IMG/VR virus record: IMGVR_UViG_3300043446_003778
Location: 1 to 33,037 of that record
From: a virus
DNA length: 33,037 nucleotides
Reading direction: 5' to 3' (one strand)
Part shown: positions 1,043 through 28,125 of the stretch, in pieces
Layout: the number at the start of each line of letters is the position of its first letter
Numbering within the stretch: position 1 is the first letter of the stretch
Notes under the pieces: generated by a model
What the model was told of the DNA's origin: nothing
Seen by the model: only the letters and a program-made list of their open reading frames with translations
Databases searched by the model: none
Position numbers and translations under genes: made by a program

Positions 1043-1816
1043 ATGCCAACGAGAACTATATCAACCTTGCAAAACAATCAGGTGCTTGACAATACGCACG
1101 GCTTAGTGTTGTCGTCGGGCGGCAAGGCCGTGAAGATTTTCAACATCGAGGGGTACGTCAACGGCGGTACGACTTCGACCAAGTATTACTTGCAGTTATT
1201 TGCGCGTACGGATTTCCCGTCCAACGGTGATGTGCCGTTGCGTTCATTGCAAGTGCTTGGTGCAAATGGTTTCACTTTCGCTTATCAACCCACTGGGTTG
1301 GATGCAATCACGTTGGGGACGGGCAGCGGTAATGATCTGACTTTCCCCAACAGCGGGGATTTGATCATCGTGGCAAGCAGCACCGAAGCTACGTTCACGG
1401 CGGTAGCGGCCAACGTGGATGTCAGCGTGGATATTGAGCAGTATGAGCAGGAGCAGCGGGGGTTGTTGCAGGTGGCCGATACTGCTGTCAACGAACTGAG
1501 CATCTGGTCAGATTCTGCGGCAAACTGCAAAAATCGTTTACATTCTGGAGTGTTCGTCAACACTGAAGCAATTGCCCGCTACATCATGTTGTTTGCGTAT
1601 GCTTCTCCCGCCACCGGAGCAACGCCCATCTGCCAATGGACACTGCCTGCCAGCGGTACGGTGAATCTTAATTTCGGCGATAATGAATCTGTTTTTTCTG
1701 TCACTTCCGACGGAGTGAAACATTATGGCTGCTACTTCGAGATCAGCTCAACGTCCGGAACATTCACATCTGATGGTGCGGTAGACGTCACAATCAACTA
1801 CTATTCCCAACAATGA
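1043..1816 (+). CDS. putative virion structural protein, unknown family
   Basis: 257 residues, preceded by a good ribosome site (AAGGAAA just upstream of the ATG at 1043). The protein is almost entirely beta-type sequence: short Thr/Ser/Gly-rich strands, no long helices, no membrane segment and no signal peptide. It ends in NYYSQQ. It lies between the adaptor and the LamG-like protein, and its stop overlaps the start of the next gene (ATGA, 1813-1816). The composition resembles phage tail or capsid-decoration proteins. I do not recognise a specific family, so 'structural' is an inference from composition and position. Confidence 0.55.
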   Translation: MPTRTISTLQNNQVLDNTHGLVLSSGGKAVKIFNIEGYVNGGTTSTKYYLQLFARTDFPSNGDVPLRSLQVLGANGFTFAYQPTGLDAITLGTGSGNDLTFPNSGDLIIVASSTEATFTAVAANVDVSVDIEQYEQEQRGLLQVADTAVNELSIWSDSAANCKNRLHSGVFVNTEAIARYIMLFAYASPATGATPICQWTLPASGTVNLNFGDNESVFSVTSDGVKHYGCYFEISSTSGTFTSDGAVDVTINYYSQQ

Positions 1817-3255
1817 AATACCTAATTGCGTTATTGATGACAGCTACCGCCTGCGTAGCTGGCCCATTAGCTGGTCCGTATCCTACTGGTGGCGGGAGTG
1901 GTGCTGGGTTTGATGGTAGCTATGGCGGCACGGCCACGTTTGGTGGTGTGACCAGCACCAACGACTTTGTCGGCAAAGCCAGACTGACATTGGGGACAAC
2001 GCAAAGCGATGCCGCTTCTGGCGCATTTGCCGCTAACGGTATTGGCGTGTACAACACAGGCGATGCCCACGTTTGGGCATGGTCTATTGGCGTGTCTAAC
2101 GCAACTCAAGATTTGCGTATCATCGAGCAGTATGTCGCTATGCATAAGAGCGCGGCAGACGCGACTCGTTTGGCAGCTTGTACCTACGGTTTGGACGGCG
2201 ACGGCACGATGTTTTTTTCGCACAACAACAACTGGGCTGGGCTTTCTACTGGAACTGGAAATGCCATTTTTAAGTGGGTCAATAACCAAAGCACTTATCC
2301 TCATGCCAATCTCATGGCATCAACGAACGGCAATATGTGGATCAGCGGAAGTTACTACGGCGACGGTTCTCAATTGACTGGCATCTCTGCAGGTACGAGC
2401 GCAGTTGGTCTTCTTATTACCAACGGATTGTTATATGATTTGGATTTTGAGGCTGGTCTCATCAACAAGAAGACTTGGTTGATGGCGACCAATAATTCCA
2501 GCGCAAACAATCCATGCATCCTGACCAACGGCGTGTATGGAAATGCGGTGCATTTTGACGGCAACAACGACCTCAAGCTGCAACCCAATACCCGTACCCT
2601 GATGAACAGCAACTTCACCATGACGGCGTGGGTGAAAGGTTCTGCAGATCGTTGGATCTATGCCACCGGCCCAGCCGCCAATGGAACTGAAGTCATCTAT
2701 GTCAGCACCGGCAATCTTCGTCTGTACGACTACACCAGCGCAACAGCATTGACCACCAGCGGCGGTACATTGTCTGATGGCAAGTGGCATTTCGTGGCCT
2801 GCACTCGCAACTTTGGAACAAACATCTCCATGATGGTCGACACCACTTGGACGAATTTCACTACTGGTTTTGCTTACAACTCGACGGCCAATACGCCCAA
2901 GTTGATGCACGATTACGGCGACACCGCGCACAAGTGCGAAATCGATAACTTCCAATATTACGATTACGCTTTGTCCCAGACAGACATACAGAACATCCGT
3001 GACGGCATTGCGTATTACAGCACAGCTACTACAGTCTACACCATTGCCACCACAGGCTGGACAAACACGACTACGGCCAACGCGCAAGTCAATTGGACTG
3101 GCACTGGCACAACGGCAACCATCAAAAATCCGGCCAACACAACGATGTACACAAGCGCATCCACCACCGGTGGCAGCTATGTGTTGCCTCCTGGCTGGGC
3201 GGTGACTCTTTCGGGAACTGGCGTGGCTGGCACTGCCTACTCCTTGAATAGGTGA
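1813..3255 (+). CDS. LamG-like (concanavalin fold) protein with signal peptide, tail-fibre-like
   Basis: 480 residues. Residues 1-16 form a typical signal peptide (MKYLIALLMTATACVA, with a likely cut after CVA). A Gly-rich linker and beta region follow. Near residues 181-192 is YYGDGSQLTGIS, a motif often seen in phage tail fibres. Residues about 205-398 match the LamG/concanavalin jellyroll pattern (GNAVHFDGNNDLKL, FTMTAWVKG, DGKWHFVACTR, IDNFQYYDYALS). The last 75 residues form a small Thr-rich beta domain. LamG domains usually bind sugars, so receptor or surface-polysaccharide binding is likely. A cleavable signal is unexpected on a virion part, because virions assemble in the cytoplasm. 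The protein could instead be exported to the host envelope. Confidence 0.65.
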   Translation: MKYLIALLMTATACVAGPLAGPYPTGGGSGAGFDGSYGGTATFGGVTSTNDFVGKARLTLGTTQSDAASGAFAANGIGVYNTGDAHVWAWSIGVSNATQDLRIIEQYVAMHKSAADATRLAACTYGLDGDGTMFFSHNNNWAGLSTGTGNAIFKWVNNQSTYPHANLMASTNGNMWISGSYYGDGSQLTGISAGTSAVGLLITNGLLYDLDFEAGLINKKTWLMATNNSSANNPCILTNGVYGNAVHFDGNNDLKLQPNTRTLMNSNFTMTAWVKGSADRWIYATGPAANGTEVIYVSTGNLRLYDYTSATALTTSGGTLSDGKWHFVACTRNFGTNISMMVDTTWTNFTTGFAYNSTANTPKLMHDYGDTAHKCEIDNFQYYDYALSQTDIQNIRDGIAYYSTATTVYTIATTGWTNTTTANAQVNWTGTGTTATIKNPANTTMYTSASTTGGSYVLPPGWAVTLSGTGVAGTAYSLNR

Positions 3256-4790: not shown

Positions 4791-7451
4791 ATGGCTTACA
4801 TCGCATTACAGAACTTCAACCGTGGGCTGGATAGTCGCAGATCAGAACTGACTTCCGCCCCCGGCACGTTGTCGCAATGTGAGAATGCCCATATCACCGT
4901 GGGTGGTGAGGTTGAAAAACGGAAAGCGTTTGTCGCTCAACGGTTCACAGATTCTAGCACAAAGCTCACCATGACTGTGGGAAGTACCACGGTAGACACG
5001 TCAACTACTGTTGCTAACTACTACAAAGTCAGTTGGAGTTTTGCGGAATTGGCTCTGAATTACGTCACAGTCGGGGCAACTACACAATTAACTTTTGTTG
5101 ATGCTTTCAGTTATGATTATGTAGCAGGAGACCACATCTGGATTGATGGTTTTACTGGTTCGTACGCCGCTATTAACGGATTGCATTACGTCACCGCTTG
5201 TGATGGGTATACCGTAACTATCGACTACAATAGCCTTGCTTTAACTTCTGGCAGTGCTTCTGGTTACATTTCACTACCTTTCACGCGATTGGATGGTTTT
5301 CGTAGTACTGCGTTAGGCAGACAAATGTTCACTAGTGATTATTTACACCACGGTGTGGTAGTTGCCGTAACTGACCAGATTGGCGCATCAGGTTATTACA
5401 AAACGGCTGTCCTTTATTCGGCTGATCCGTTTTGGGGAACGGCTACTTTTACCGCAGGCACTACTCTTTATGGGGAATTGTTTATCGGGGGATTGCAAGC
5501 TACTGACAGCGGATTGACTGTATTTACAAATAGCGGCACGACCATCACGAACACGAGCGTGATAAAACAAACGCTAACCAACCCCATCAACAGCAACTGG
5601 AAGCTGTACGACATCGTCACCTCCTGCAATTTTGGCGGCAAAGCATGGGTGGTCGCAAAGTTCTTCGACAGCACAACGGCATCGTACCCTGATGTGTTCG
5701 ACAGCATCAGCTACGTTTTCTATGATGGTGTTGCCTTGGGAGAATGGTGGGAGGGCTATCTCATCACGACGGCAAATTATCTGTCGCGGATGAAGGACAT
5801 CATTGAAGCCATCCCCGGCTTCACTACGGCCAATTATCTTGCTTCGACCACGGCCACATCAGGACTATTGGTCTCTAACCGCACATACAAAATCACCAAC
5901 TACGTCAGCGGTGATGACTTCACCAACATCGGCGGCACAAACACCACTGGCACAGTATTCACGGCTTCAGGTACAACTCCGACAACGTGGACACACAGTT
6001 CTACTCTTGTCAGCGAAGGTTACTTCGACGTGTATGCCGACTACGGCCTAGCTTTTTCTGTCGTCACTTCCGTTGTGTCAGGCACAACTACTGGCTACAC
6101 GGCGACCAAGATTGCAGGTTCAGTTGAACCTACACCAGGCTATGGCGCAGCCGCGCAATTCAAGATGACTGGCGGCACTTGCGACACACAGATCACCATT
6201 ACCGGCTTTACCAAAGGGGCAACCACAGTATATTTGGCCGCAGGTCATCAATACATTGTTGGTGACTGGGTTTACGTTTCTGGCTTTACCGGTGCGAACA
6301 CCGCGTTGAATGGGTTGAAACTCATCACCGCTATCAGTGCTGGTGTGTCATTCACCATTGCTTACGATAGTTCTGCGCTGACATCCGCCTCAACCACTGG
6401 CACATCAGCTATCCGTCCGGCTGGGCTGTTGTCGTTGCAAGTCGTCACGCCTTCCGCGACCTACTCGTTGTTCAACAACAACAGTGGAACAACCCCGCTG
6501 GCAATGCTTACCAACACTGGTGACGATGCTTCAAATGCGGAAAACTTTGCTGCGTATGTGGTGGCGACCATCAATGCGTATGCCGCGTCAACTGCCAATG
6601 GCTACACGGCCAAGAACAACAAGAACCAAATCGCCATCTACGCCGACCCTGCATTGGGGGTCGATGGCAACAAAGCCACGCTGGCTGTCACTACTATCAA
6701 CGATTGCTGCACCGACACAGTTGCTGTGCTGTTTGATGATACGACAGCTAGTGCAAACTGTGGCCCAATCACGCTTACAAAATATGATGGCACTACGGTT
6801 GATTTGCTAAATGGGACTACTGTCAGTTCTACCAACAGTGGTTCTTCGATGGCAAAAGCAGTGGCCGCAGAAATCGCCAAGCATCGCGCCACTACCGGCT
6901 ACACCGCAGCATACGTCCAACTGGTGGATACTTCCACCGGAGCAGTCGTTGTAACCCACAATGTGGTCATTTCTTCCGTGGTGCGTAACAGTAACGACCC
7001 GCAGCCAAAGAAAATCACGGTGACTTCTGCGGGGAGTACCGCAGTGATACAAGGCGGTTACGTCGGCAACGGTGTGTTTCCTACGGCAGTGATTGTGACT
7101 GTGGATGATTTTAACTATACTGCCGACAAGGGTTCACGCATCACAGTAACACCAAAACACGCTGGCGGCCAACCGGCTTACGCTTTTTACAACATATCTA
7201 TAGATACTTCTGGGCTGTACACTAAGCTCGTGGGTGGAACTTATGTCCAAACCATCACGGGATTTACCTATTATGTGACCAACGGAAAAGATGGATACAC
7301 TTTAACTTTGATTCCGCCCTTTCCGTCTAGCACTGGAGGCACGACACAAATTCAAGGTACATTGTTTGGGGTTGTAAAATATAGCGTAACTTCTAAGGAC
7401 TCGGTAGGCCAATTAGGCACAAGTAATACAGGAACGATAACGTACAAATAA
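4791..7451 (+). CDS. tail nozzle protein, N-terminal part, with inserted fibre-like repeats
   Basis: 886 residues. The N-terminus (ALQNFNRGLDSRRSELTSAP, then CENAHITVGGEVEKRKAF) is the characteristic start of podovirus nozzle proteins (the T7 gp12 / tail tubular B type). The expected propeller blades then appear in the next ORF rather than here. Much of this ORF (about residues 90-870) is Thr/Ser-rich beta sequence, including two copies of a ~65-residue unit (residues 94-160 and 475-541) and a segment often seen in tail fibres (TYKITNYVSGDDFTN, 365-379). The ORF ends TAA, one base before the ATG of the downstream part in another frame. It is probably one subunit of a two-chain nozzle, or an ancestral gene split by insertion. 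Confidence 0.6.
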   Translation: MAYIALQNFNRGLDSRRSELTSAPGTLSQCENAHITVGGEVEKRKAFVAQRFTDSSTKLTMTVGSTTVDTSTTVANYYKVSWSFAELALNYVTVGATTQLTFVDAFSYDYVAGDHIWIDGFTGSYAAINGLHYVTACDGYTVTIDYNSLALTSGSASGYISLPFTRLDGFRSTALGRQMFTSDYLHHGVVVAVTDQIGASGYYKTAVLYSADPFWGTATFTAGTTLYGELFIGGLQATDSGLTVFTNSGTTITNTSVIKQTLTNPINSNWKLYDIVTSCNFGGKAWVVAKFFDSTTASYPDVFDSISYVFYDGVALGEWWEGYLITTANYLSRMKDIIEAIPGFTTANYLASTTATSGLLVSNRTYKITNYVSGDDFTNIGGTNTTGTVFTASGTTPTTWTHSSTLVSEGYFDVYADYGLAFSVVTSVVSGTTTGYTATKIAGSVEPTPGYGAAAQFKMTGGTCDTQITITGFTKGATTVYLAAGHQYIVGDWVYVSGFTGANTALNGLKLITAISAGVSFTIAYDSSALTSASTTGTSAIRPAGLLSLQVVTPSATYSLFNNNSGTTPLAMLTNTGDDASNAENFAAYVVATINAYAASTANGYTAKNNKNQIAIYADPALGVDGNKATLAVTTINDCCTDTVAVLFDDTTASANCGPITLTKYDGTTVDLLNGTTVSSTNSGSSMAKAVAAEIAKHRATTGYTAAYVQLVDTSTGAVVVTHNVVISSVVRNSNDPQPKKITVTSAGSTAVIQGGYVGNGVFPTAVIVTVDDFNYTADKGSRITVTPKHAGGQPAYAFYNISIDTSGLYTKLVGGTYVQTITGFTYYVTNGKDGYTLTLIPPFPSSTGGTTQIQGTLFGVVKYSVTSKDSVGQLGTSNTGTITYK
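5070..5270 (+). repeat. protein-level repeat unit 1 inside the nozzle ORF
   Basis: Encodes residues about 94-160. The unit has the pattern GATTQLTF...YVAGDHIWIDGFTG...AINGLHYVTA...YTVTIDYNSLALTS. The same pattern returns at 6213-6413 with clear amino-acid similarity but diverged DNA, so this is an old duplication of a small beta domain and not a recent DNA repeat. Confidence 0.7.
6213..6413 (+). repeat. protein-level repeat unit 2 inside the nozzle ORF
   Basis: Encodes residues about 475-541 (GATTVYLA...YIVGDWVYVSGFTG...ALNGLKLITA...FTIAYDSSALTS) and matches unit 1 at 5070-5270 position by position. Such small beta modules are often swapped among phage tail proteins. Confidence 0.7.
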
Positions 7452-7452
7452 T

Positions 7453-8664
7453 ATGGCTGTAACCTCCGACATCCCGTTCGCGTTCTCTGCTCAATCCTTT
7501 AGCGGCGGACAAACGCTTGGTGTTGGCCGTGGCGATACTTGGCGCATTCGCATCACCGGACAGGGCGCAACCGACGACAGACTCAAGTTGGATTTTGTCG
7601 ACAACGGCAGCAACACCGTCTTGGCGGCAGGCGATGTCATCGGCTCTGCCCCGCTGTCAGCTATCGCGTTGAACAACCGCGTGTATTACATCAGCGGCAA
7701 CACGCTGTATTTTTCCGCCCTTGGCGACCCGACACAATTCGAGACCCAGGGCATCGGTGCTGGCTTCATCGACATGAGCAACAACTTTGCTCAAGCTGAA
7801 CCCCTCACGGGCATTGCGTCCTACCAAGGCAAGCTGGCTATCTTCGCCCGCAATAGCGCACAGATCTGGCAGATCAGCCCAGACCCTGCTGGGTTTGCCC
7901 AGATACAAGTCCTGCCGAACACCGGCACGATGGCATCGAAGTCGGTCAAGAGCATCGGCGACCTCGACGTGATCTACCTGTACGACACGGGTATCCGTTC
8001 CCTGCGGGTTCGGGACAGCAGCCTGAACGCGGTGCTGGTCGACGTTGGAACTCCGATAGACACGCTCGTGCAGGACGCGCTCTCGGGGGCTACGAGCTAC
8101 GCCAAGTCCACGGCTTGCGCCGTGGTCGAGCCGACGGGCGGGCGGTACTGGCTGTACCTCGACGGAACAATCTACGTCCTCTCGTACTACCCCAGCGCGA
8201 AGATTGTGGCGTGGTCAACTTATCTGCCAACTTACCAAAGCGGCTCGGCTCAATACGAGTTTGTGCCAGCCAAGTTCGAGGTCTACAACAACCAAGTGTA
8301 CGCCACCGATAACGTCGCCTTGTTCACCTACGGCGGCACATCCGGCACTACCTATGACAACGCCGTCGCCACGGTGCAAGTACCGTTCTTCGACATGAAG
8401 CGGCCAGCGCACAACAAGACCGCCGGTGGGATCGATGTCGACCTTTCCGGCTCATGGAACGTCGCCTGTTCACCAGATTGGATTGACGACAACATGATCA
8501 CCGCCTTGCAGGCGCAATCTACTCCAACCTTCGACAAGGGTTGGATTCCGTTCAACGCTACCGGTACGCATTTCACGTTCTACGCGCAGACCACCGGCTC
8601 GACGGCGGCCAAGATTTCCCAGCTCACTCTGCATTACCAAACCAACGACTCCCCATTTGAATGA
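7453..8664 (+). CDS. tail nozzle protein, C-terminal beta-propeller part
   Basis: 403 residues. The sequence carries the familiar run of podovirus nozzle blades: LNNRVYYISGNTLYFSALGD (residues 74-93), AGFIDMSNNFAQAEPLTGIA, GKLAIFARNSAQIWQ, QVLPNTGTMASKSV, DVIYLYDTGIRSLRVRDSS, then GGRYWLYLDGTIYVLSYYP. In relatives known to me these blades are in the same chain as the NFNRGLD-type N-terminus, which here is in the previous ORF. The ATG at 7453 follows the previous stop by one base and lies in a different frame. Its role is the lower tail tube that closes the DNA channel. The end overlaps the next gene by ATGA. A stretch at about 7960-8210 is much more GC-rich than its flanks. Confidence 0.75.
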   Translation: MAVTSDIPFAFSAQSFSGGQTLGVGRGDTWRIRITGQGATDDRLKLDFVDNGSNTVLAAGDVIGSAPLSAIALNNRVYYISGNTLYFSALGDPTQFETQGIGAGFIDMSNNFAQAEPLTGIASYQGKLAIFARNSAQIWQISPDPAGFAQIQVLPNTGTMASKSVKSIGDLDVIYLYDTGIRSLRVRDSSLNAVLVDVGTPIDTLVQDALSGATSYAKSTACAVVEPTGGRYWLYLDGTIYVLSYYPSAKIVAWSTYLPTYQSGSAQYEFVPAKFEVYNNQVYATDNVALFTYGGTSGTTYDNAVATVQVPFFDMKRPAHNKTAGGIDVDLSGSWNVACSPDWIDDNMITALQAQSTPTFDKGWIPFNATGTHFTFYAQTTGSTAAKISQLTLHYQTNDSPFE

Positions 8665-11277: not shown

Positions 11278-14200
11278 ATGAATGATCTTGAAATTGGACT
11301 TCCTAGTACTGGGTTAAGCGACGCAGACATAGGCTTGCCAGTTGCTACCAGCATCCGCCGTACTGGCCTCAGCGATGCCGACATAGGCATAGCAGTTTCT
11401 CCGGCTGCCCCTGCGGAATTAAAAACATGGTCGCCCACGATGATGCAACGCTTGCAGGAAGCATTGCCTTCTGTGTTCGGGCCGACACAACAACCTGTAG
11501 TTGGTGGGCCGCGTGGGGCTGTCCCGGTATTAAGTGCGTTGACTGAGTCGCTGGCTAAAGGGCCGCCAAAAGAAGTTACGCAAGCCGTAGGTAAATTTTT
11601 AGTCGATTCTCCGCTTTTATCTACGATGAGAGACGAGCCTTTTGCTTTCCGGACTCATGCCTTGTCCGCCCAAGATGTGATCAACATGGGCAAACAACCG
11701 CCAACACAGACAGAACAACCGATGTCGCCGTTTCAACGTGGAGCGGCAAGCGCAATCAGCGAAGTGCTTGGCTTGGCATCACCGTTCAACATTGCACTTG
11801 GTGGTGGGTTATCCGAAATTGGCGCGATTGCAAAAGCGGGACAAGTAATTGGTGCTACTGCCGAGGCACAAAAAGCGGCACAGTTAGCCCAAGGCGCAAA
11901 AGCCGCAGCCGAAACTTACTTCTTCATGGAAGGTTTGAAAGGGCTTGGGCAGTCCTACGAAACAGCAACATCCGGTCAGCAATTATCGCCCGAACAAAAA
12001 GGGCAGCTTGCCGCACAGACACTTTTGTCTGGATTGATGGTTTACGCGCCAGTGGCAGAATTACGAGCTTCACAAGGTATTAAGCCTACAGGTGTCAAAC
12101 CTCAGATGACTCAATTGACTCCGTTGGAAGAATACATGGTCCGTAAAGGACGTCCGCCTGGGCCTCCTGCGGCGTTGCTGCCTGCGCCGGAAGGTATTTC
12201 TTTGGGCAAGATGCCCATCCGCCAGCAAGGGCCGTTCGTCGGAGAAGTCACCGGCCCTGTCTCCATTGCGCCTACGCAGCAACCATTCTCGCAAGCGGTC
12301 ATCACACCTACGCGTGAGATGATTGAGATGCAGTTACGCCGCCCAGAAGGACAAGTCCCTGAAGGCGCAATTCCTCCGCGTACACGCGCTCCGTTCGAGA
12401 CGCCCATCATCGGTGGGAAGGCCGCACCGCAGCCGTTCTCCGTGAACGTCGGGCAGGCGATAGCCGAGGCTTTGGGCAGGGAGCAACTCCAACCGCCCGT
12501 GCCAGTCGAACGCGGGACGGTACGCGCCGAACCGGCGGGGGGTCAGGTTTCCTTCGCAGCACCCGCCGAAGGCGGGGCGATACCCTCGGCCAGACAGACA
12601 GCCGTCGAGCAACCGCAACCGTCTCCTGCCGCAGGCCGAGTCATGTCCGGTGTCGATCCTACCGAATACATCAAGGCTTTGCGTCCCGCGTTGCGTTTGA
12701 TGAGTGGTACAGTCGTCGAAGGCAAACAGGGGCAATCTCATAATGATATAATCCGCGAGAACAACATCAGCCCAGACAACATCGACTCGCGGGTCTTTGT
12801 CAAAGCCGGTGACAAGACTCCAATCTCCCGCGAAGAAGCGGCAAAGTTAACTCAACTACCAACCAGCGAACCAGGCCGTCTGCATTCCAGCGACCTAGCG
12901 AAAGGACAAGATGCCAGCGCAATACGAAGCAATCAGGGACAGCCTTCTCCGGAAGGGGTACAAATCCAAGGACGCGAAGAAAATCGCGGCGGCAACCTAC
13001 AACAAGCAGCAGGGGCGCAAGAAGCACCCGCGTTACCTCAAGCCGGGGATGTAGGCAAACCAGATTGGGAACTCTATAGCGAAGAGCTTCGCGGCAATCT
13101 GGAATCATTCTCGCCTGCCCGCCATACCGGACAGATCAATTATGATATGATGGACGTGGCGGATTCTTTTGTGCAATACGCCGAAGCAAATGCCAAAGGT
13201 CGACCATTGACCGAGGTTGTCCGCGAGTTTGCCAAGTCGGCAGAAGGCACACCCAAGCAACTGCGTCAGCTTAAGGCATCGGTCAAGAGCATCGAAGACG
13301 CTAAGTTTGATTTCAGCACAAAACCTGAATCCGCCCGCCTCTATCCGCAAGCCGGGGATGTAGGCAAACCGGAGACAATGTCCGTTGGCGAACGTAGATC
13401 TCAAGCTTACGAAGGATTCAAATCTAGGTATCCAGAATCGCAAGCAGTCATGGTGAATGGTCGCCTTTACTCACCCGAAGCGAGGCAGATGTTGCAAGGC
13501 TTGCAAGAAGGCAAACCTTTGGATCGTGAAAAATTTGATGCCGTAATTAAACGCGATTTACCTTGGGATACAAAAATAGAAACGCCAACACAAAAATCAT
13601 TGCCTTCCAAAGAAACCATACTGAACGCTGTTACCAAAGATAAAGCTCCACGAGTAATGACAGCGGACACAATCCCAGCTGGTACAAAAATTACTTCCCG
13701 TCAAGATGTGCCAGCAATGCGGGATCATGGTATTGGGGTGGTGACGGTGGATTCGCCGTTAGGGAAACATTACGAAGCTGCTTTTGTCATCGACAATCCC
13801 GAACTAAAACCGACTGCCGGAATGGAAAAAGCTGGATTGCGTATTGGGGCAGGCAAAGAAAAAGAACCTACTATAGTTATACGCGGGACAAAAGCAGCTG
13901 ATCAAAGTCTGCCTAAAGATTTGGATACATGGACGCAAGCTGGGTACAACCCTGACCGGCATTCGTATATGTATGACCGGGCGACTGGAGAACCTATACT
14001 TTCAGGCAGTAAAGCAGTACAAATAGGGAACAGCATATTTGTCAAAGACCCTGTGCATGGCCCAGCCTCCGCCCGCGTCTACAGCGGCATCCCCATGCTG
14101 CCGAAGGAACACTTCGATAAAGCCATCGAGCGCATCAAGATTTTGGCGACAGGTACTATCGATGACTTCAAACGCCGTGGTACAAAGCAAGAACTATCGA

Positions 14201-16593
14201 TGCTCGACAATCGCATCGGCAACATTGCTAACACGGTTGCAACCCAGAATGCCAACACCATCAGCGGCCCGTTAAAGCGCACGTTCGGCAAACAAGAAAA
14301 ATTGGCTGATGTGGCGTTGTCGTTGGTGCGTGAAGTGGGTGAGGACAAAGCCAAGCTACAACAGCAACTCAATGACACTGCCACCAAGTTCACCGGCAAA
14401 CAACCAGCAGCCGAACGCTTGTGGAAACAGGCTGCTGAATTTGCGTTGAAAAATTTCGACCAGTTGCGTCCGTTGTCGGAGCAATACAAAGCCATCATGG
14501 ACATGACGCAGAAGCGTCAGCTTCAGGAAGGCTCGAACATCCCGTACCGGCAGAACTATGTCGAGCATCTGTTCCAAGATGAAGGTGGTTTGTTTGAACC
14601 GAGTTCAGGTGGAACTGGCGGTGGTGCTAAAAAGGCCAGAACCTACGACACGTTCTTTGACCGTATTGCCGATGGCAATGACCCAGTCAACATGACCTCT
14701 ACCGTGTTGATGAAGGATGCCATCGCCAAAGCACAACGGCAAATAGTGCAGCCTAGTCTGTACATCAAGACGATGTCCAAGGCCAACGACCCCATCAACG
14801 GTAAGCCGGTGATGATGCCGCTGACCGAGCAGATTCCGTTTGATCCAGCCAAACCAGCCCCTGCTGGGTACACTCTCGGCAAAGACCTGCTCGGCAACAA
14901 AGTGTGGGAACGCTCCAACATGGACTCCATCACACGCGGCCCAGGATTGCCGACTGATGTTCGCCCGCCAAAAGGCTACCTTGAAGTCAACGTGCGCGGA
15001 AAGAAGGCACTGGTTCAGGAAGCATATAAGCCATTGGTCGATGCGTTGAACGATACGTCGTGGTTTGATCGCAGTCGTCTGGGGAAGGCAACCACCAGCT
15101 ATGCGGGGGTCGCCAAACACGTTGACTTCTTGTTCGATGTGTTGCACCTGACTCGTATGTGGAAAGTGGCGGCGGGCATAAAACGCAATTTGTTTGTCAG
15201 CCCAACGAAAGGGCTGTACACTTTGGACTACACCCCTGGTGAACTACGCGCCAAAGCGGCAGCCGGTGAGATAAACCCAGCAGACTTGCCAGAATTGTTG
15301 CGGCGGCGAGACATCAACATGAAACTGTTGTCTGAAGGGTTTAATCCTGGCCGTGCGGCTGATGCGTTGCACCAGCATCTGTTAGACAAAATGTGGATTA
15401 CTGGGCCTGTTCAGCACTACATCTTCAACGTGTTTTCTCGTGGAGCAATGGCAGAAGTCGGTCCTGTGGTTTATGATCGCATCCGCGCACAGAATCCGAC
15501 GTGGACGGAACGGCAGGTGTTACAACAGGCCGCCAAGGATTTGAATCTTGAGTTCCGTAACGTAGGCAGCGAAGGATTCTTCAAATCAAAAACAGGCAAT
15601 GACATGATGCGTATCTTTATAGCTGCCCCGCGTTGGACAATGGGGACGATTGCCCGTGAATCTAAGGCGCTGGCAGGATTCCCTGTCGGTGTTTACAAGA
15701 CCGGCAAGACACTGGTCACTGAAGGAAAATTTCGTCCTCAGTTTAACACACATACATCCAGCATCGCCACTGTGTTGCTGGGGCAGTTGATTGCCAACCA
15801 GATCATCAACATCGCCACTACCGGACACACCACGTTCGAAAACGACGACGAGCATAAATTCTCGGCTGATCTCGGCAATGGCAAATGGCTTGGCCTGACC
15901 GAGGGCGGACTTGAAGCGACCAGTCGCATCATGGATGTGATTGAAAAGAACTCGACTTGGCTAGAAGCAGGAAAAGCGTTTGTCGGTCCAAAGTTATCAG
16001 TGCCAGCCAGAGCGGCGGCTACGGCAGTGACCGGCCAAGAATATGGACTCACCGGCCCGCTTATCCCTAAAGAAGAGGTTGGTAAAAAAGCCATCGGCAA
16101 ATTGCTGCCCGATCCAATCATTTTTCAAACCATCCGTAAAAAAGGAATTAAGGAAGCTGCGTTATCCGCATTGGAACTAGCGGGCAAACCAGAGGCGATA
16201 GCCAATCAGAAAACCTTGCAAGCGGTCAGCCGCTGGAAACAAGAAACCAAGATCCCCGAGCGCGAAGGTAAGTTTCCTGTATCCAGCTATGCTGCCCTCA
16301 CCAAGGCATTGCGCGACGGGGATACCGTGGCAGCGCAGGAGGAATACGCCAAGTTCACCACACCCGATGAAAAAGAACTGGCAGATCGTTACTACAAGAA
16401 CTACCAAGACCACGCGTTCACCGGCAGCGCAAAACACGAGAAGCAATACAAGGCATACATCGCCAATAAGCCTGCCTTAAAAAAAGCCTACGATGATGCG
16501 ATGGCGAGCAACAAATCCGTCAGCGAAAACTTCTTCAAGCTGCAAGGCAAAGCATTGCCCAAGAAGGGCAAAACGCCTACTGTATTCTTGTGA
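11278..16593 (+). CDS. large internal virion / DNA-ejection protein (T7 gp16-position)
   Basis: 1,771 residues, the largest gene here. The N-terminus has two copies of TGLSDADIG (residues 11-19 and 29-37). The first ~700 residues are Pro/Gln/Ala-rich and low in complexity, with short helices and a repeated QAGDVGKP segment. From about residue 950 the sequence becomes a long, mostly helical globular part (for example RLGKATTSYAGVAKHVDFLF and IAAPRWTMGTIARESKAL). This part resembles the C-terminal regions of giant phage 'polyvalent' or internal proteins that act on host entry. No lytic transglycosylase or protease motif could be seen. Size and order (gp14-like proteins, then this) match T7 gp16, but sequence similarity to gp16 is not claimed. 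Its stop overlaps the next start (GTGA). Confidence 0.6.
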   Translation: MNDLEIGLPSTGLSDADIGLPVATSIRRTGLSDADIGIAVSPAAPAELKTWSPTMMQRLQEALPSVFGPTQQPVVGGPRGAVPVLSALTESLAKGPPKEVTQAVGKFLVDSPLLSTMRDEPFAFRTHALSAQDVINMGKQPPTQTEQPMSPFQRGAASAISEVLGLASPFNIALGGGLSEIGAIAKAGQVIGATAEAQKAAQLAQGAKAAAETYFFMEGLKGLGQSYETATSGQQLSPEQKGQLAAQTLLSGLMVYAPVAELRASQGIKPTGVKPQMTQLTPLEEYMVRKGRPPGPPAALLPAPEGISLGKMPIRQQGPFVGEVTGPVSIAPTQQPFSQAVITPTREMIEMQLRRPEGQVPEGAIPPRTRAPFETPIIGGKAAPQPFSVNVGQAIAEALGREQLQPPVPVERGTVRAEPAGGQVSFAAPAEGGAIPSARQTAVEQPQPSPAAGRVMSGVDPTEYIKALRPALRLMSGTVVEGKQGQSHNDIIRENNISPDNIDSRVFVKAGDKTPISREEAAKLTQLPTSEPGRLHSSDLAKGQDASAIRSNQGQPSPEGVQIQGREENRGGNLQQAAGAQEAPALPQAGDVGKPDWELYSEELRGNLESFSPARHTGQINYDMMDVADSFVQYAEANAKGRPLTEVVREFAKSAEGTPKQLRQLKASVKSIEDAKFDFSTKPESARLYPQAGDVGKPETMSVGERRSQAYEGFKSRYPESQAVMVNGRLYSPEARQMLQGLQEGKPLDREKFDAVIKRDLPWDTKIETPTQKSLPSKETILNAVTKDKAPRVMTADTIPAGTKITSRQDVPAMRDHGIGVVTVDSPLGKHYEAAFVIDNPELKPTAGMEKAGLRIGAGKEKEPTIVIRGTKAADQSLPKDLDTWTQAGYNPDRHSYMYDRATGEPILSGSKAVQIGNSIFVKDPVHGPASARVYSGIPMLPKEHFDKAIERIKILATGTIDDFKRRGTKQELSMLDNRIGNIANTVATQNANTISGPLKRTFGKQEKLADVALSLVREVGEDKAKLQQQLNDTATKFTGKQPAAERLWKQAAEFALKNFDQLRPLSEQYKAIMDMTQKRQLQEGSNIPYRQNYVEHLFQDEGGLFEPSSGGTGGGAKKARTYDTFFDRIADGNDPVNMTSTVLMKDAIAKAQRQIVQPSLYIKTMSKANDPINGKPVMMPLTEQIPFDPAKPAPAGYTLGKDLLGNKVWERSNMDSITRGPGLPTDVRPPKGYLEVNVRGKKALVQEAYKPLVDALNDTSWFDRSRLGKATTSYAGVAKHVDFLFDVLHLTRMWKVAAGIKRNLFVSPTKGLYTLDYTPGELRAKAAAGEINPADLPELLRRRDINMKLLSEGFNPGRAADALHQHLLDKMWITGPVQHYIFNVFSRGAMAEVGPVVYDRIRAQNPTWTERQVLQQAAKDLNLEFRNVGSEGFFKSKTGNDMMRIFIAAPRWTMGTIARESKALAGFPVGVYKTGKTLVTEGKFRPQFNTHTSSIATVLLGQLIANQIINIATTGHTTFENDDEHKFSADLGNGKWLGLTEGGLEATSRIMDVIEKNSTWLEAGKAFVGPKLSVPARAAATAVTGQEYGLTGPLIPKEEVGKKAIGKLLPDPIIFQTIRKKGIKEAALSALELAGKPEAIANQKTLQAVSRWKQETKIPEREGKFPVSSYAALTKALRDGDTVAAQEEYAKFTTPDEKELADRYYKNYQDHAFTGSAKHEKQYKAYIANKPALKKAYDDAMASNKSVSENFFKLQGKALPKKGKTPTVFL
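13039..13061 (+). repeat. direct repeat copy A (23 bp) in the large ejection-protein gene
   Basis: An exact 23-base match to 13348-13370, encoding QAGDVGKP in the same frame. The copies are 309 bases apart (103 codons), so a segment may have been duplicated or be exchangeable by recombination. Confidence 0.8.
13348..13370 (+). repeat. direct repeat copy B (23 bp) in the large ejection-protein gene
   Basis: Second exact copy of the 23-base sequence at 13039-13061. Both encode QAGDVGKP, flanked by unrelated residues, which suggests a linker between interchangeable modules. Confidence 0.8.
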
Positions 16594-24703: not shown

Positions 24704-25071
24704 ATCGGTTTGTCCATGTCTGCGCCGACGAGACCCTGGTCGACTATCGACTTGACGTGCTTGGTCATCTCTTCGGTGTGCATCAGCGAAATGATGAACA
24801 CGAGTTCATCCTTGGTCAGAGAATTGAACTTGGAGTCGAACGCATCGCGCAGCAGCTTCATCGTCCCGACCATATCGTATGCCGAGGCGGATGGCAATGC
24901 TCGCAGCAACGGAACCGCTGTGGTAAGTTCAACCTCCCGCCAGAAGGCCCTGCACTTGGCGATGCACTGTTCTTCCGCCGTTGGCGGACGATTCTTACGG
25001 GCGTGGTATTCGCCCAAGGTTTTCTTGTCGATGAAGTCCTCAATCATCTGGCGGCGTTGGTCAGGGTTCAT
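24700..25071 (-). CDS. unknown helical protein (123 aa)
   Basis: Mostly helical and charged: MNPDQRRQMIEDFIDKKTLGEYH at the start, a Cys-containing helix (EEQCIAKCRAFWREVEL, 34-50) and a Leu-rich second half (GTMKLLRDAFDSKFNSLTKD). No transmembrane segment, signal or recognised motif. It is coupled by ATGA to the Sak4-like gene before it and to the zinc-ribbon gene after it, so it may belong to the recombination group, but no function can be assigned. Confidence 0.55.
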   Translation of the reverse strand: MNPDQRRQMIEDFIDKKTLGEYHARKNRPPTAEEQCIAKCRAFWREVELTTAVPLLRALPSASAYDMVGTMKLLRDAFDSKFNSLTKDELVFIISLMHTEEMTKHVKSIVDQGLVGADMDKPI

Positions 25072-25781
25072 AGATAGATTTGTTTCCAGTCGTTTGTGGT
25101 TGCGGGTGAAGTGAAGGAGAATGCTTTGTTGATAAGATGCGGGCAGCGGCTGCCGCAGTTGGCACTATCGGTGGTGATGAACGAGATCATCAGCTTGCCG
25201 TCCTTGTCGCGGTACGCATGGCCGATGGCATCCGTGTAGGCGCAGACGATGTTGCGAATCTTGCCGGTCAAGTCGAGGTCTTTCGACGTCACGTCCTTGC
25301 CATCCGCCGTCAGCATCTTGTCGCGGATGTGGCCGATGAATATCGCATTGGGTGCGAGGTTGCGGAGGCGGTTAAAATATTCATAGAACACATTCCGCAG
25401 ATGGAAGTAGCCACCGCCCTGTGGCAGTTCAAGTACGCTCTTGCCGCCAAAGCCTTTGCCCTGCGGCGATGCTTTGTACCTGGCTGTCGCCTCGACTTCG
25501 CACCATTCCTCGAGCTTGTCGAGAGTGTCGACGCAGACATACTTGTACGGAAACTTCGCCGCCTTCACGGCCTCTTCGAGACCATTCACTTGAAGGATGT
25601 TATCCAGCTTGACCTTCAAGGCGGTGACGAAGTTGCTGCCATTCTCGAGGTCAATGATGAGGCAGTCATCCAGCGCAGCTACGATGCTTGTCTTGCCGAT
25701 CTTGGGTGGGCCGTAGATGACCAGTGTCTTGGGGTTTGAATCAGTAGGTGGTAGTGGTTGGGTTGGTAGTTGTATTGGCAT
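25068..25781 (-). CDS. Sak4-like P-loop ATPase (phage recombination)
   Basis: 237 residues. A Walker A loop GPPKIGKT (24-31) follows the first strand (TLVIYG), and YVCVDT (81-86) is a Walker B strand with Asp85. IIDLENGS (42-49) fits the AAA_24/RecA-like ATPases annotated as phage nucleotide-binding proteins, whose members include Sak4-type single-strand annealing recombinases. IFIGHIRDK (about 147-155) would sit at the sensor strand. The neighbours are a RecB-like nuclease and an SSB-like protein, a common set. In the family, ATP-dependent ssDNA binding supports repair and recombination. A KaiC-like accessory role is the alternative. Confidence 0.7.
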   Translation of the reverse strand: MPIQLPTQPLPPTDSNPKTLVIYGPPKIGKTSIVAALDDCLIIDLENGSNFVTALKVKLDNILQVNGLEEAVKAAKFPYKYVCVDTLDKLEEWCEVEATARYKASPQGKGFGGKSVLELPQGGGYFHLRNVFYEYFNRLRNLAPNAIFIGHIRDKMLTADGKDVTSKDLDLTGKIRNIVCAYTDAIGHAYRDKDGKLMISFITTDSANCGSRCPHLINKAFSFTSPATTNDWKQIYL

Positions 25782-25788
25782 AAGATTG

Positions 25789-27189
25789 TTAGACTTTAGC
25801 TAGTTGTTTTTGGATGTCAATAGACAATGTTAAGAATGCTTTGGCTGCTGTGGCTGGGACGACTCCGTTGCCGAGGAGACGGAGTTCATCAGTTCGATTG
25901 TCACCGGAGACGCACAGCTTGGCATAGTCCAGCCCACAGGAAGACCCATCAGAGTTTCCACCCAGCGTGGGTTGAGTTTGCCGTTGTTCCTGTTCCACGC
26001 ACCAGTCTGTTCCACTTCCGTCTGGCTCGGCAGATCCGTTGATTTGCCGTTTCGGATCATTCGGCCTTCCGCTCCTTTCGCATCCCTGCTCTGTGGCGTT
26101 GCCCACGCCTTTACCTGCCTGTCCAGCTTTGGCGTCATGCTCCCGTCCTTCTGGCGATGCGCTCCGGTTGATACCGTTGCAGTCGCCCACGACGCGGGGC
26201 GGCTCCCATTCACCTTCTGGTAAATCTCCACCGACATCGGGTCTACCTGCTCCCGCAGATTTGACGGAGCAATCCTTCCGGCTCTCGCTCCGGTTGCTTG
26301 TTTCCAAACCCCCTCCGGTGTCCGTGTGTCCAGATGGTCGAGGGTATTTGGCGTTGCCCACGCCTTCGGGTTCGTCCCCTTGATTTCCTCCGCAAACACC
26401 TGGTCCACCGTTAGCATTTGCGTCTGCGCCTTCTCGCCGCTGACCAATGCCTTCACCACTTGACGGTGCGGAGTCATACCTCGGTTGTTCGTCCCCGGCG
26501 CAAAAGTCTGCCAGTTTTGAGGGGACTGCTCCAACAACCCTTGGCGGCTCCCATCCGTGCTGGGGTTCGCCGGGGCGGGAGGGCCATACATCACAACCGC
26601 CTCCAACGTATCCAGACGATGCTTCCCATCCTTCCTTTGCACCGCATTTCCACAACCCTTCCAATCCCGAGCTGCCGATGTCGGCCATGATGAACACCCG
26701 CTTCCGCTGGTGCGGTGCGCCGACTTCAGCCGCGCTGAATATTCCCCACGCCGTTGTGTAACCAATGCTTTCCAGTTCTTCAATGACGTTTCGGAGTCCA
26801 AGGCTGATGTGTCCTTCGACGTTTTCAAAGAAGCAGACTCTTGGTCGCATAGCCCGAATTCCATCTGCAATCCACGGCCAGAGATGTCGTGGGTCGTCTT
26901 TTCCGAGTCGCTTTCCGGCGGAACTGAATGGCTGGCAGGGATACCCTCCAGAGAGGATGTCCACCTTTCCACGAAACTCTGCCCAAGGGAAGGTTTTAAG
27001 ATCCGACCAGATAGGTGCTGCGTCCAAGAGTCCCGCTTCCATTTTTGCAACCAGGTTCGCAACGGCGAAACCTTCGATCTCACTAGCAGCGATGCAGCGC
27101 AGACTTGGCATGATTCGTTTGAGTCCAAGGTCAATGCCTCCGTATCCAGAGCAGAGGCTAACGTGTGTAATTGTTTTGGTAGTATCCAT
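25789..27189 (-). CDS. DNA cytosine-C5 methyltransferase (larger)
   Basis: 466 residues. Motif I SLCSGYGGIDLG (11-22), catalytic GGYPCQPFSSAG (81-92, Cys85), FENVEGH (121-127), GAPHQRKRVFIMAD (157-170) and the C-terminal LRLLGNGVVPATAAKAF (436-452) are all intact, so it should transfer methyl groups from S-adenosylmethionine to cytosine C5. The region between motifs VIII and IX, about 175-420, is unusually Gly/Asp/Pro-rich and low in complexity for a target-recognition domain (for example VGNAKYPRPSGHTDTGGG). The same DNA stays open in the +1 frame (25,830-27,194). Its likely role is to protect phage DNA from host restriction. The target sequence cannot be told. Confidence 0.9.
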   Translation of the reverse strand: MDTTKTITHVSLCSGYGGIDLGLKRIMPSLRCIAASEIEGFAVANLVAKMEAGLLDAAPIWSDLKTFPWAEFRGKVDILSGGYPCQPFSSAGKRLGKDDPRHLWPWIADGIRAMRPRVCFFENVEGHISLGLRNVIEELESIGYTTAWGIFSAAEVGAPHQRKRVFIMADIGSSGLEGLWKCGAKEGWEASSGYVGGGCDVWPSRPGEPQHGWEPPRVVGAVPSKLADFCAGDEQPRYDSAPSSGEGIGQRREGADANANGGPGVCGGNQGDEPEGVGNAKYPRPSGHTDTGGGLETSNRSESRKDCSVKSAGAGRPDVGGDLPEGEWEPPRVVGDCNGINRSASPEGREHDAKAGQAGKGVGNATEQGCERSGRPNDPKRQINGSAEPDGSGTDWCVEQEQRQTQPTLGGNSDGSSCGLDYAKLCVSGDNRTDELRLLGNGVVPATAAKAFLTLSIDIQKQLAKV

Positions 27190-27194
27190 GACAT
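25830..27194 (-). CDS. candidate overlapping frame inside the cytosine methyltransferase gene
   Basis: A +1 frame relative to the methyltransferase is open for 454 codons from ATG 27194, five bases upstream of the methyltransferase ATG, and continues upstream into the nuclease gene. It contains repeated W(P/A)T-type segments (WPTSAARDWKG, WATPNTLD, WATPQSRDAKG) and LNPRWVETLMGLPVGWT near its end. That ending pattern is familiar from phage methyltransferase-linked proteins. Part of the pattern arises from the conserved methyltransferase DNA itself (the HQRKRVF region reads as EYSARLKSAHRTSG here), so resemblance alone is not proof. It may be a real overprinted protein, an alternative target-recognition frame reached by recoding, or a by-product of biased base composition. 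Confidence 0.35.
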   Translation of the reverse strand: MSWILPKQLHTLASALDTEALTLDSNESCQVCAASLLVRSKVSPLRTWLQKWKRDSWTQHLSGRILKPSLGQSFVERWTSSLEGIPASHSVPPESDSEKTTHDISGRGLQMEFGLCDQESASLKTSKDTSALDSETSLKNWKALVTQRRGEYSARLKSAHRTSGSGCSSWPTSAARDWKGCGNAVQRKDGKHRLDTLEAVVMYGPPAPANPSTDGSRQGLLEQSPQNWQTFAPGTNNRGMTPHRQVVKALVSGEKAQTQMLTVDQVFAEEIKGTNPKAWATPNTLDHLDTRTPEGVWKQATGARAGRIAPSNLREQVDPMSVEIYQKVNGSRPASWATATVSTGAHRQKDGSMTPKLDRQVKAWATPQSRDAKGAEGRMIRNGKSTDLPSQTEVEQTGAWNRNNGKLNPRWVETLMGLPVGWTMPSCASPVTIELMNSVSSATESSQPQQPKHS

Positions 27195-27198
27195 AGTA

Positions 27199-28125
27199 TT
27201 ATTTAAGGGGTGACCAATCATTATCGATGAACTTATCGCTACGGAGTTCCGCTTCACGGGCATCCTCACGGCTGTAGCACACTTCATAGTACGGGCATTT
27301 GCCATACAGTGTGCAGGCTTTCTTCTTCATGGGCAGGTAGTCCTGCTCAAGGTGGAAAAACAATTCCTTGATGAGGTGGATGACGTTGCGCTTCCACTCA
27401 TCGATCTGACCGGGCTTGAGGTATTCTTTATGGCGGGCAAAGCCTTCCGCCCACCACGCATCCCAGCTACCACGAGGCTTGGCTGGCATCGCCTTGGTGC
27501 GAATGGCATTGATGCAGAAACCTGCCACACGCTGGCCGGTGAGCTGCTCGAATGCCCACGCATAGCCTTCGTACTGCGGGCTGACACGTTGGCCGTCGAA
27601 GTAATGATCACCCAGCATCGTGGTGGTCTTGTGATCCATCACGAACAGTTGTCCTTCCCACATCACCGGCAGGTCGATGCGCCCAGTGTACACCACCGGA
27701 ATGTCCTTGTAAGTGAACAGCGGCAGCGCGAATGAATTCTCCGCCATCACCTTGCCATGCTCGTCGGCGATGAGGTTGAACGGTTCAATGTGATAGACCG
27801 CATTGTAGCGGGTGATCATCTCGACAGCGAAGTCGAGTGTGCGGTGGTCGCCTTCTGCCGCTGGAGACTTGGCGAAATGTTCGACCAGGATGTTGCGCTG
27901 GGCATCCGCCTGCGCTGGTGATACCGGATTGCTTTCGCAGTTCTTGTAGCGGTATTCCAAGGCCGCATGGATTGCCGTGCCGAAAGACAAGGCTGGCTGA
28001 TCCGTAGCGGGTTTACGCTTAAGCAACCGATCGTATTGCAATGCCCGAGGGCAGGTGATCAATCGTTCGATGAATGAGTTGTCGACGAGCAATGCGCCAT
28101 CGACGAGTGGTAATGTTGTTTTCAT
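27199..28125 (-). CDS. RecB/Cas4-like PD-(D/E)XK nuclease with four cluster cysteines
   Basis: 308 residues. The nuclease core has a His (AIHAALE, His53), GRIDLPV (Asp151), FVMDHKTTT (Asp164, Lys166) and QYEGY (Gln184, Tyr188), the RecB-family QxxxY motif. Cys25 (ITCPR) and Cys271, Cys277 and Cys283 (CTLYGKCPYYEVC) form the four-cysteine pattern that holds an iron-sulfur cluster in AddB and Cas4-type nucleases. Expected activity is exonuclease or end-resection. With the Sak4-like ATPase and the SSB-like protein it forms a plausible recombination module. The start at ATG 28125 lacks a clear ribosome site. Confidence 0.85.
   Translation of the reverse strand: MKTTLPLVDGALLVDNSFIERLITCPRALQYDRLLKRKPATDQPALSFGTAIHAALEYRYKNCESNPVSPAQADAQRNILVEHFAKSPAAEGDHRTLDFAVEMITRYNAVYHIEPFNLIADEHGKVMAENSFALPLFTYKDIPVVYTGRIDLPVMWEGQLFVMDHKTTTMLGDHYFDGQRVSPQYEGYAWAFEQLTGQRVAGFCINAIRTKAMPAKPRGSWDAWWAEGFARHKEYLKPGQIDEWKRNVIHLIKELFFHLEQDYLPMKKKACTLYGKCPYYEVCYSREDAREAELRSDKFIDNDWSPLK

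Follow-up and report, generated by a model that had tools for sequence, protein, structure and literature searches.

M.EcoHK31I and M.EaeI are reportedly natural two-polypeptide cytosine-C5 methyltransferases, and the small polypeptide of M.EcoHK31I is said to be read within the large gene in a different frame, with both polypeptides needed. The large polypeptide of M.EcoHK31I carries motifs I to VIII and X and was assigned the predicted recognition domain, and only motif IX is located on the small polypeptide (PMC3404938). In M.AquI, the catalytic motifs lie on one polypeptide and the distal recognition part together with motif IX on another, motifs IX and X both belonging to the small subunit (PMC3404938). 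Nested gene pairs are already annotated in the Paenibacillus phages Bloom (Bloom_56/57) and Rani (Rani_50/51, 'g50 Internal gene') and in Escherichia phage K1ind1 (gp32/gp33). The literature on overlapping methyltransferase genes in phages yielded nothing beyond split enzymes, the Paenibacillus phage papers do not discuss the nested pair, and no precedent for a full-length overlap from twin start codons was found in the literature.

The locus described here lies in the window, the whole analyzed stretch of 33,037 nucleotides of the virus record IMGVR_UViG_3300043446_003778, between the upstream gene for a PD-(D/E)XK exonuclease (27199-28125) and the downstream gene for a Sak4-like AAA protein (25068-25781). 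Two long reading frames, termed A and B, share about 1.36 kb of doubly coding DNA in this dsDNA phage. The features of the locus, by window position, are as follows.

25789-27189, minus strand: gene A, catalytic chain of a C5-cytosine methyltransferase, 466 aa, motifs I to VIII and X (PF00145, phrog_363)
25830-27194, minus strand: gene B, +1-frame protein of 454 aa, proposed recognition subunit (open in relatives, ATG conserved, limits on synonymous change, phrog_1008)
27187-27194, minus strand: twin start codons ATGTCATG, with the B ATG at 27194-27192 and the A ATG at 27189-27187
26680-27189, minus strand: doubly coding 5' part, motifs I to VIII in A and the N-terminal region in B (4-fold divergence)
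26000-26687 (limits approximate), minus strand: WPT/WATP modules in B, disordered linker in A (sequence, pLDDT, both 4-fold rates reduced)
26533-26586, minus strand: A-frame conserved island WPSRPGEPQHGWEPPRVV (near-invariant in the alignment, A-type substitutions in codons 201-220)
25926-25976, minus strand: motif IX-like LNPRWVETLMGLPVGWT in frame B (4-fold sites, phrog_1008 positions 254-279)
25825-25884, minus strand: motif X LRLLGNGVVPATAAKAFLTL in frame A (phrog_1008 positions 291-317, A 4-fold 94/269)

The long +1 frame of 454 codons that the sequence-only reading had pointed out inside the methyltransferase gene was confirmed from the ATG at 27194 to the stop at 25830, in an ORF that is open upstream as far as 27305. 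Its WPT/WATP-type repeats are present, and so is LNPRWVETLMGLPVGWT. Frame B begins one base into the A codons (A1=B3, A2=B1, A3=B2), so that every third-position change that is silent in A hits a second position in B.

Compared by description, the locus resembles M.EcoHK31I in that motifs I to VIII and X are on one chain, A, and the IX-like motif is on a second chain. This second chain is read in another frame of the first gene, as is also said of M.EcoHK31I. Unlike in that enzyme, B is as long as A, spans the whole gene and starts 2 to 5 nt upstream of A; it also has variable WPTP modules, and the phages are (probably) those of Verrucomicrobia. As in M.AquI, the catalytic motifs and the recognition part with motif IX are on separate polypeptides, but the catalytic chain keeps motif X, the two genes overlap almost entirely, and motif X was located on the second chain only in the relatives L157, L047 and L038. 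The nested pairs of Bloom, Rani and K1ind1 have the same A/B arrangement with a B matching phrog_1008, but their B begins at about A codon 30-60 and not at the A start. The locus is best read as a two-polypeptide C5-methyltransferase like M.EcoHK31I, which is the closest functional precedent. As far as we found, the full-length overlap, the twin starts and the selection evidence for both frames are new, as is one family view tying together single-chain, tandem, nested and fully overlapped forms.

Close relatives of A in bacterial genomes were limited to five Verrucomicrobia loci (L159-L163) and one Woeseia locus (L164), which makes a verrucomicrobial host probable. A second, smaller C5-methyltransferase-like gene was found in the same phage (29709-30398, minus strand; phrog_757, 6.8e-24). 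The large plus-strand ORFs 11278-16593, 4791-7451, 7453-8664 and 1813-3255, one of them encoding 1771 aa, had no PHROG match at E 0.001, a sign of a poorly known phage group.

A search of both translations against protein profiles, proposed earlier, gave matches of A to PF00145 and phrog_363 and of B to phrog_1008; a Pfam match was obtained for A only. The match of A to PF00145 (1.3e-33) covers residues 8-169 only, and phrog_363 matched with 5e-55. Residues P84, C85 and Q86, E122, N123 and V124, and R162/R164 were invariant among 48 sequences. The chain carries motifs I to VIII (PCQ, ENV, QRxRxF) and, at residues 436-455, a motif X (LGNxVxP) under A-frame constraint; motif IX and the recognition region are absent from it, and IX-like sequence sits in frame B. 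Low complexity at the expected place of the recognition domain, remarked on from the sequence alone, was seen past residue 169. The AlphaFold2 model of A was confident for residues 1-170, except 87-93 and their neighbors, and for the motif X helix 445-465, and residues 185-440 mostly had pLDDT <50. In this model, A looks like a large domain with a long linker and the small domain absent. The low-complexity "recognition domain" of A is best read as an out-of-frame shadow of B.

An initial set of 76 relatives, collected with B peptides and therefore favoring B, was not used as the basis of conclusions. Because selection by B peptides could bias the sample toward B, a second set of 80 relatives was collected with A residues 1-170 only, and the conclusions rest on this A-selected set. 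A tblastn search with B found only phage C75C1.

Stop codons were evaluated by codon permutation, i.e., the shuffling of synonymous codons with the protein and codon usage kept. Across 58 A-selected loci, no B stop was seen in A codons 1-168 against 154 expected, and with B codons shuffled, no A stop was seen in the middle of the gene against 301 expected. The control frame C was near expectation in the same loci (410 versus 388 expected, and 437 versus 404). For the window alone, shuffling of A synonymous codons led to an expectation of 4.3 B stops, with none seen (P = 0.0014) and 21 stops in frame C; shuffling of B codons in the middle led to 7.5 expected A stops, with none seen, and 0 of 20,000 shuffles reached zero. 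GC-rich DNA, put forward earlier as a cause of the open B frame, is no explanation, since the permutation preserves both codon usage and protein and the B stops still fall far below expectation.

Frame B was open past the LMGxPxGW motif in nearly all A-selected loci, where the length of A is 258 to 586 aa, and frame C had about 8-31 stops over complete genes of this set. Homologs with an intact methyltransferase and a broken B were looked for in the A-selected sample, and B codons 1-155 were free of stops in every locus. The few exceptions beyond these codons were an HNH insert (L129 and L104), motif X in the other frame (L157, L047 and L038) and a fusing frameshift (L074/L075). A and B are almost certainly two coding genes on the same DNA; the overlapping pair is real and unusually long, and it is no chance shadow ORF.

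All 74 distinct A-selected loci have a B-frame ATG 2-11 nt ahead of the A start, at offsets of -2 (42 loci), -5 (29 loci), -8 (2 loci) and -11 (1 locus). Loci of the -2 class have ATGTGG, and A is forced to start at GTG; those of the -5 class are of the ATGACATGG type, the window itself having ATGTCATGG. Most loci have no other upstream start for A, and the stop codon of the exonuclease gene (27201-27199) lies four bases ahead of the B ATG. In the C72C1-like and Norbert-like families, a stop near A codon 50-64 is directly followed by the B start, which often has a Shine-Dalgarno-like sequence (GGGAGG or AAAGGAGG) ahead of it and speaks for separate initiation of B, and in Escherichia phage K1ind1 the annotated B start is at about A codon 30. 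The nested B begins sharply in the Norbert-like (L173-L252) and C72C1-like (L253-L332) loci, and the synonymous rate of A drops there.

To follow selection along the gene, 21 independent pairs from the window family were aligned at the DNA level irrespective of frame, and the proportion of 4-fold sites that differ was taken for each frame. In A codons 1-75, 4-fold change was 0.10 for A and 0.12 for B; in codons 76-135, where A dominates, it was about 0.29 for A and 0.08 for B. The 4-fold divergence of A was lower in codons 1-75 than in codons 76-135 (p = 4e-18), and within the doubly coding 5' part the constraint from B peaks at A codons 1-75 and 136-170. In the middle of the gene, both rates were reduced (A 0.11, B 0.18). 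At motif IX, 0 of 154 A 4-fold sites and 96 of 227 B 4-fold sites were changed, with amino acid divergence of 37% in A versus 4.5% in B; here B alone matters. From motif X to the end, 94 of 269 A 4-fold sites were changed, and A alone matters.

The C72C1-like and window families provide a natural experiment on the B start. In 30 C72C1-like pairs, the A 4-fold rate was 0.315 before the B start at A codon ~55 and 0.139 after it, followed by 0.039 in the middle, 0.008 at motif IX and 0.303 past the B end. Over A codons 1-55, the rate was 0.094 in the window family, where B covers them, versus 0.315 in the C72C1-like family, where B is absent (p = 5e-21). This pattern along the gene is the one expected for two overlapping coding genes. 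The comparison of substitutions per frame across homologs, suggested with the original observation, thus found both frames constrained and the dominance alternating along the gene.

B had no family among Pfam and NCBIfam profiles. The phrog_1008 profile matched every one of the 48 B proteins in the window family, the B of the window with 8e-20, and the N-terminal ~75 residues of B in this family are outside the match. On the window, profile positions 35-156 and 254-279 fall in frame B and positions 291-317 (motif X) in frame A. Elsewhere, nested B proteins are matched in Norbert (29-283) and K1ind1 (2-286), as is gp77 of Taquarus (163-318). The methyltransferase of mycobacteriophage Estave1 is one chain, with motifs I to VIII (phrog_363) and residues 203-366 matching phrog_1008 152-323 (E 9e-50). 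Estave1-like enzymes resemble the locus in having motifs I to VIII, LPTP modules, EWMMGWPAGW and motif X; unlike in the window, all of these are in one frame and one chain. From the shared phrog_1008 matches it follows that, in the single-chain relatives, the WPTP modules and LNPxWVExLMGxPxGW stand after motif VIII and ahead of motif X, where the recognition region and motif IX belong. On this profile evidence, the B modules are homologous to the recognition, IX and X part of single-chain phage methyltransferases.

A HMMER alignment placed the LNPxWVExLMGxPxGW stretch of B on M.HhaI 271-307 (LHPRECARVMGYP...FGNSVV), colinear and not significant alone. A PDB search with the 21-residue IX profile found no methyltransferase, and one with the profile of B gave nothing useful. 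From its position, the single-chain relatives and the weak M.HhaI alignment, LNPRWVETLMGLPVGWT is best read as motif IX. Over this DNA, frame A of the C72C1-like family is fairly conserved as well (EPxVGRVAxGIPxRVDRLK), and a separate substitute for motif IX may thus exist in A there. The AlphaFold2 model of B alone had a mean pLDDT of 52.5 and was poor except for the helix 132-162; a poor fold could be expected for a subunit with a thin alignment and is neutral to the two-chain model.

Parts of the enzyme shift between chains among the relatives. In the window family, motif X is in B and not in A in L157, L047 and L038, in which an indel between motifs IX and X puts X into frame B and A is truncated. 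In the actinophage-like loci L342, L345, L350 and L352, B ends just ahead of motif IX and A carries both IX and X; since B lacks motif IX in some actinophages, its required contribution is not fixed. Taquarus has the gene split into two tandem genes, gp78/gp77, and resembles M.AquI, with motifs IX and X both on the second chain. Such parts are interchangeable between chains or fused, for which one enzyme complex would be the best explanation, and the sequences point to it. In L074/L075 (3036-4001), a frameshift fusion brings motifs I to VIII into frame with the WPT modules and motif IX, and an A-type tail with motif X remains in the third frame. An HNH-endonuclease-like ORF (PF01844) lies inside the motif IX codons (LNPRWVCVLM|...) in L129:3881-4447 (contig of L028) and in L104 (contig of L029); in L129, frame A is open through the entire HNH insert (499 aa) up to motif X.

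The suggestion that the +1 frame is an overprinted gene is supported by the conserved B start codon, the lack of stops and the limits that B sets on synonymous change in A. The other suggestion, a recognition region readable in either frame, also agrees with the data: it is in the same frame as motifs I to VIII in Estave1-like phages and in the +1 frame here. Both alternatives are thus partly true.

A single stretch of DNA at the locus probably specifies both chains of a two-polypeptide phage cytosine-C5 DNA methyltransferase, which assemble into one enzyme, and B most likely supplies the missing DNA-recognition part. We infer from the sequences that both products are made, that they assemble, that the modules choose the target and that the enzyme has a role in the phage. 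Ribosomes arriving at the end of the exonuclease gene would start at either ATG and make B and A, as in a bicistron without spacing. A would contribute the catalytic large domain (I to VIII) and motif X with a long disordered linker between them, and would serve in cofactor binding and catalysis. B would be the small domain, in which variable WPTP-type modules replace the target-recognition region and are followed by motif IX. The modules would contact DNA and motif IX would organize them; that target recognition is carried out by the WPTP modules is somewhat more likely than not. The complex of A and B would modify the DNA of the phage itself, most likely as a defense against host restriction.

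An independent job of B outside the methyltransferase, e.g., as a regulator or an anti-restriction protein, would agree with the lack of a Pfam match, the failure of AlphaFold2 to fold B and the N-terminal ~75 residues outside phrog_1008 in the window family. It is nevertheless unlikely, as the B modules share one chain with motifs I to VIII in Estave1-like phages and L074, motifs IX and X move between A and B, and A alone is without a folded small domain. Ribosomes might instead shift from A to B after motif VIII and back before motif X, so that B is not separate and one complete chain results, in the Estave1 order of motifs I to VIII, modules, IX and X. This is improbable: the constraint on B reaches back past the point of any such shift as far as the start of B, and all 74 loci conserve the B ATG; a programmed frameshift product would have neither an own start nor upstream constraint. 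A shift out of A also needs no open A in the middle, where A is kept open with 0 stops against 301 expected.

The remaining explanations deny one of the two frames. B as an accidental open frame, arising from base composition and the conserved methyltransferase protein, is highly improbable. GC-rich genes often contain shadow frames of this kind, and the similarity of B in codons 76-135 is partly passive (A 4-fold 0.286), but permutation expects 154 B stops and none was seen, the B ATG is conserved, and at motif IX the A-synonymous sites are unchanged (0 of 154) and B third positions change freely. The chance ORF was rejected on the stop permutation, the ATG and this substitution pattern. Scarcely credible, too, is A as a relic of which only the N-terminal part matters, the middle and end being a by-product of B. 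The predicted disorder and the B-dominated substitutions of the A middle fit it, but against it stand the 0 A stops in the middle versus 301 expected from B codons and the constraint in A on motif X and the WPSRPGEPQHGWEPPRVV island.

There is about an even chance that in a phage lineage the small methyltransferase subunit was lengthened until two complete genes of ~450 codons shared their DNA, that the twin starts 2-5 bases apart keep the subunits in step, that the first ~55 codons of B were invented atop an existing catalytic gene, and that the WPTP modules make up a set of recognition elements, written in the other frame, that can be gained and lost. Outside small viruses, it is rare for long overlaps on the same strand to have both frames under selection, and phages infecting several bacterial phyla harbor nested relatives of this pair. 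Many annotated phage methyltransferases have a puzzling low-complexity recognition domain, which is explained here as another protein's shadow; genes of this sort are probably misannotated, and A cloned alone would appear inactive. The stepwise lengthening of B across the families is a direct record of overprinting.
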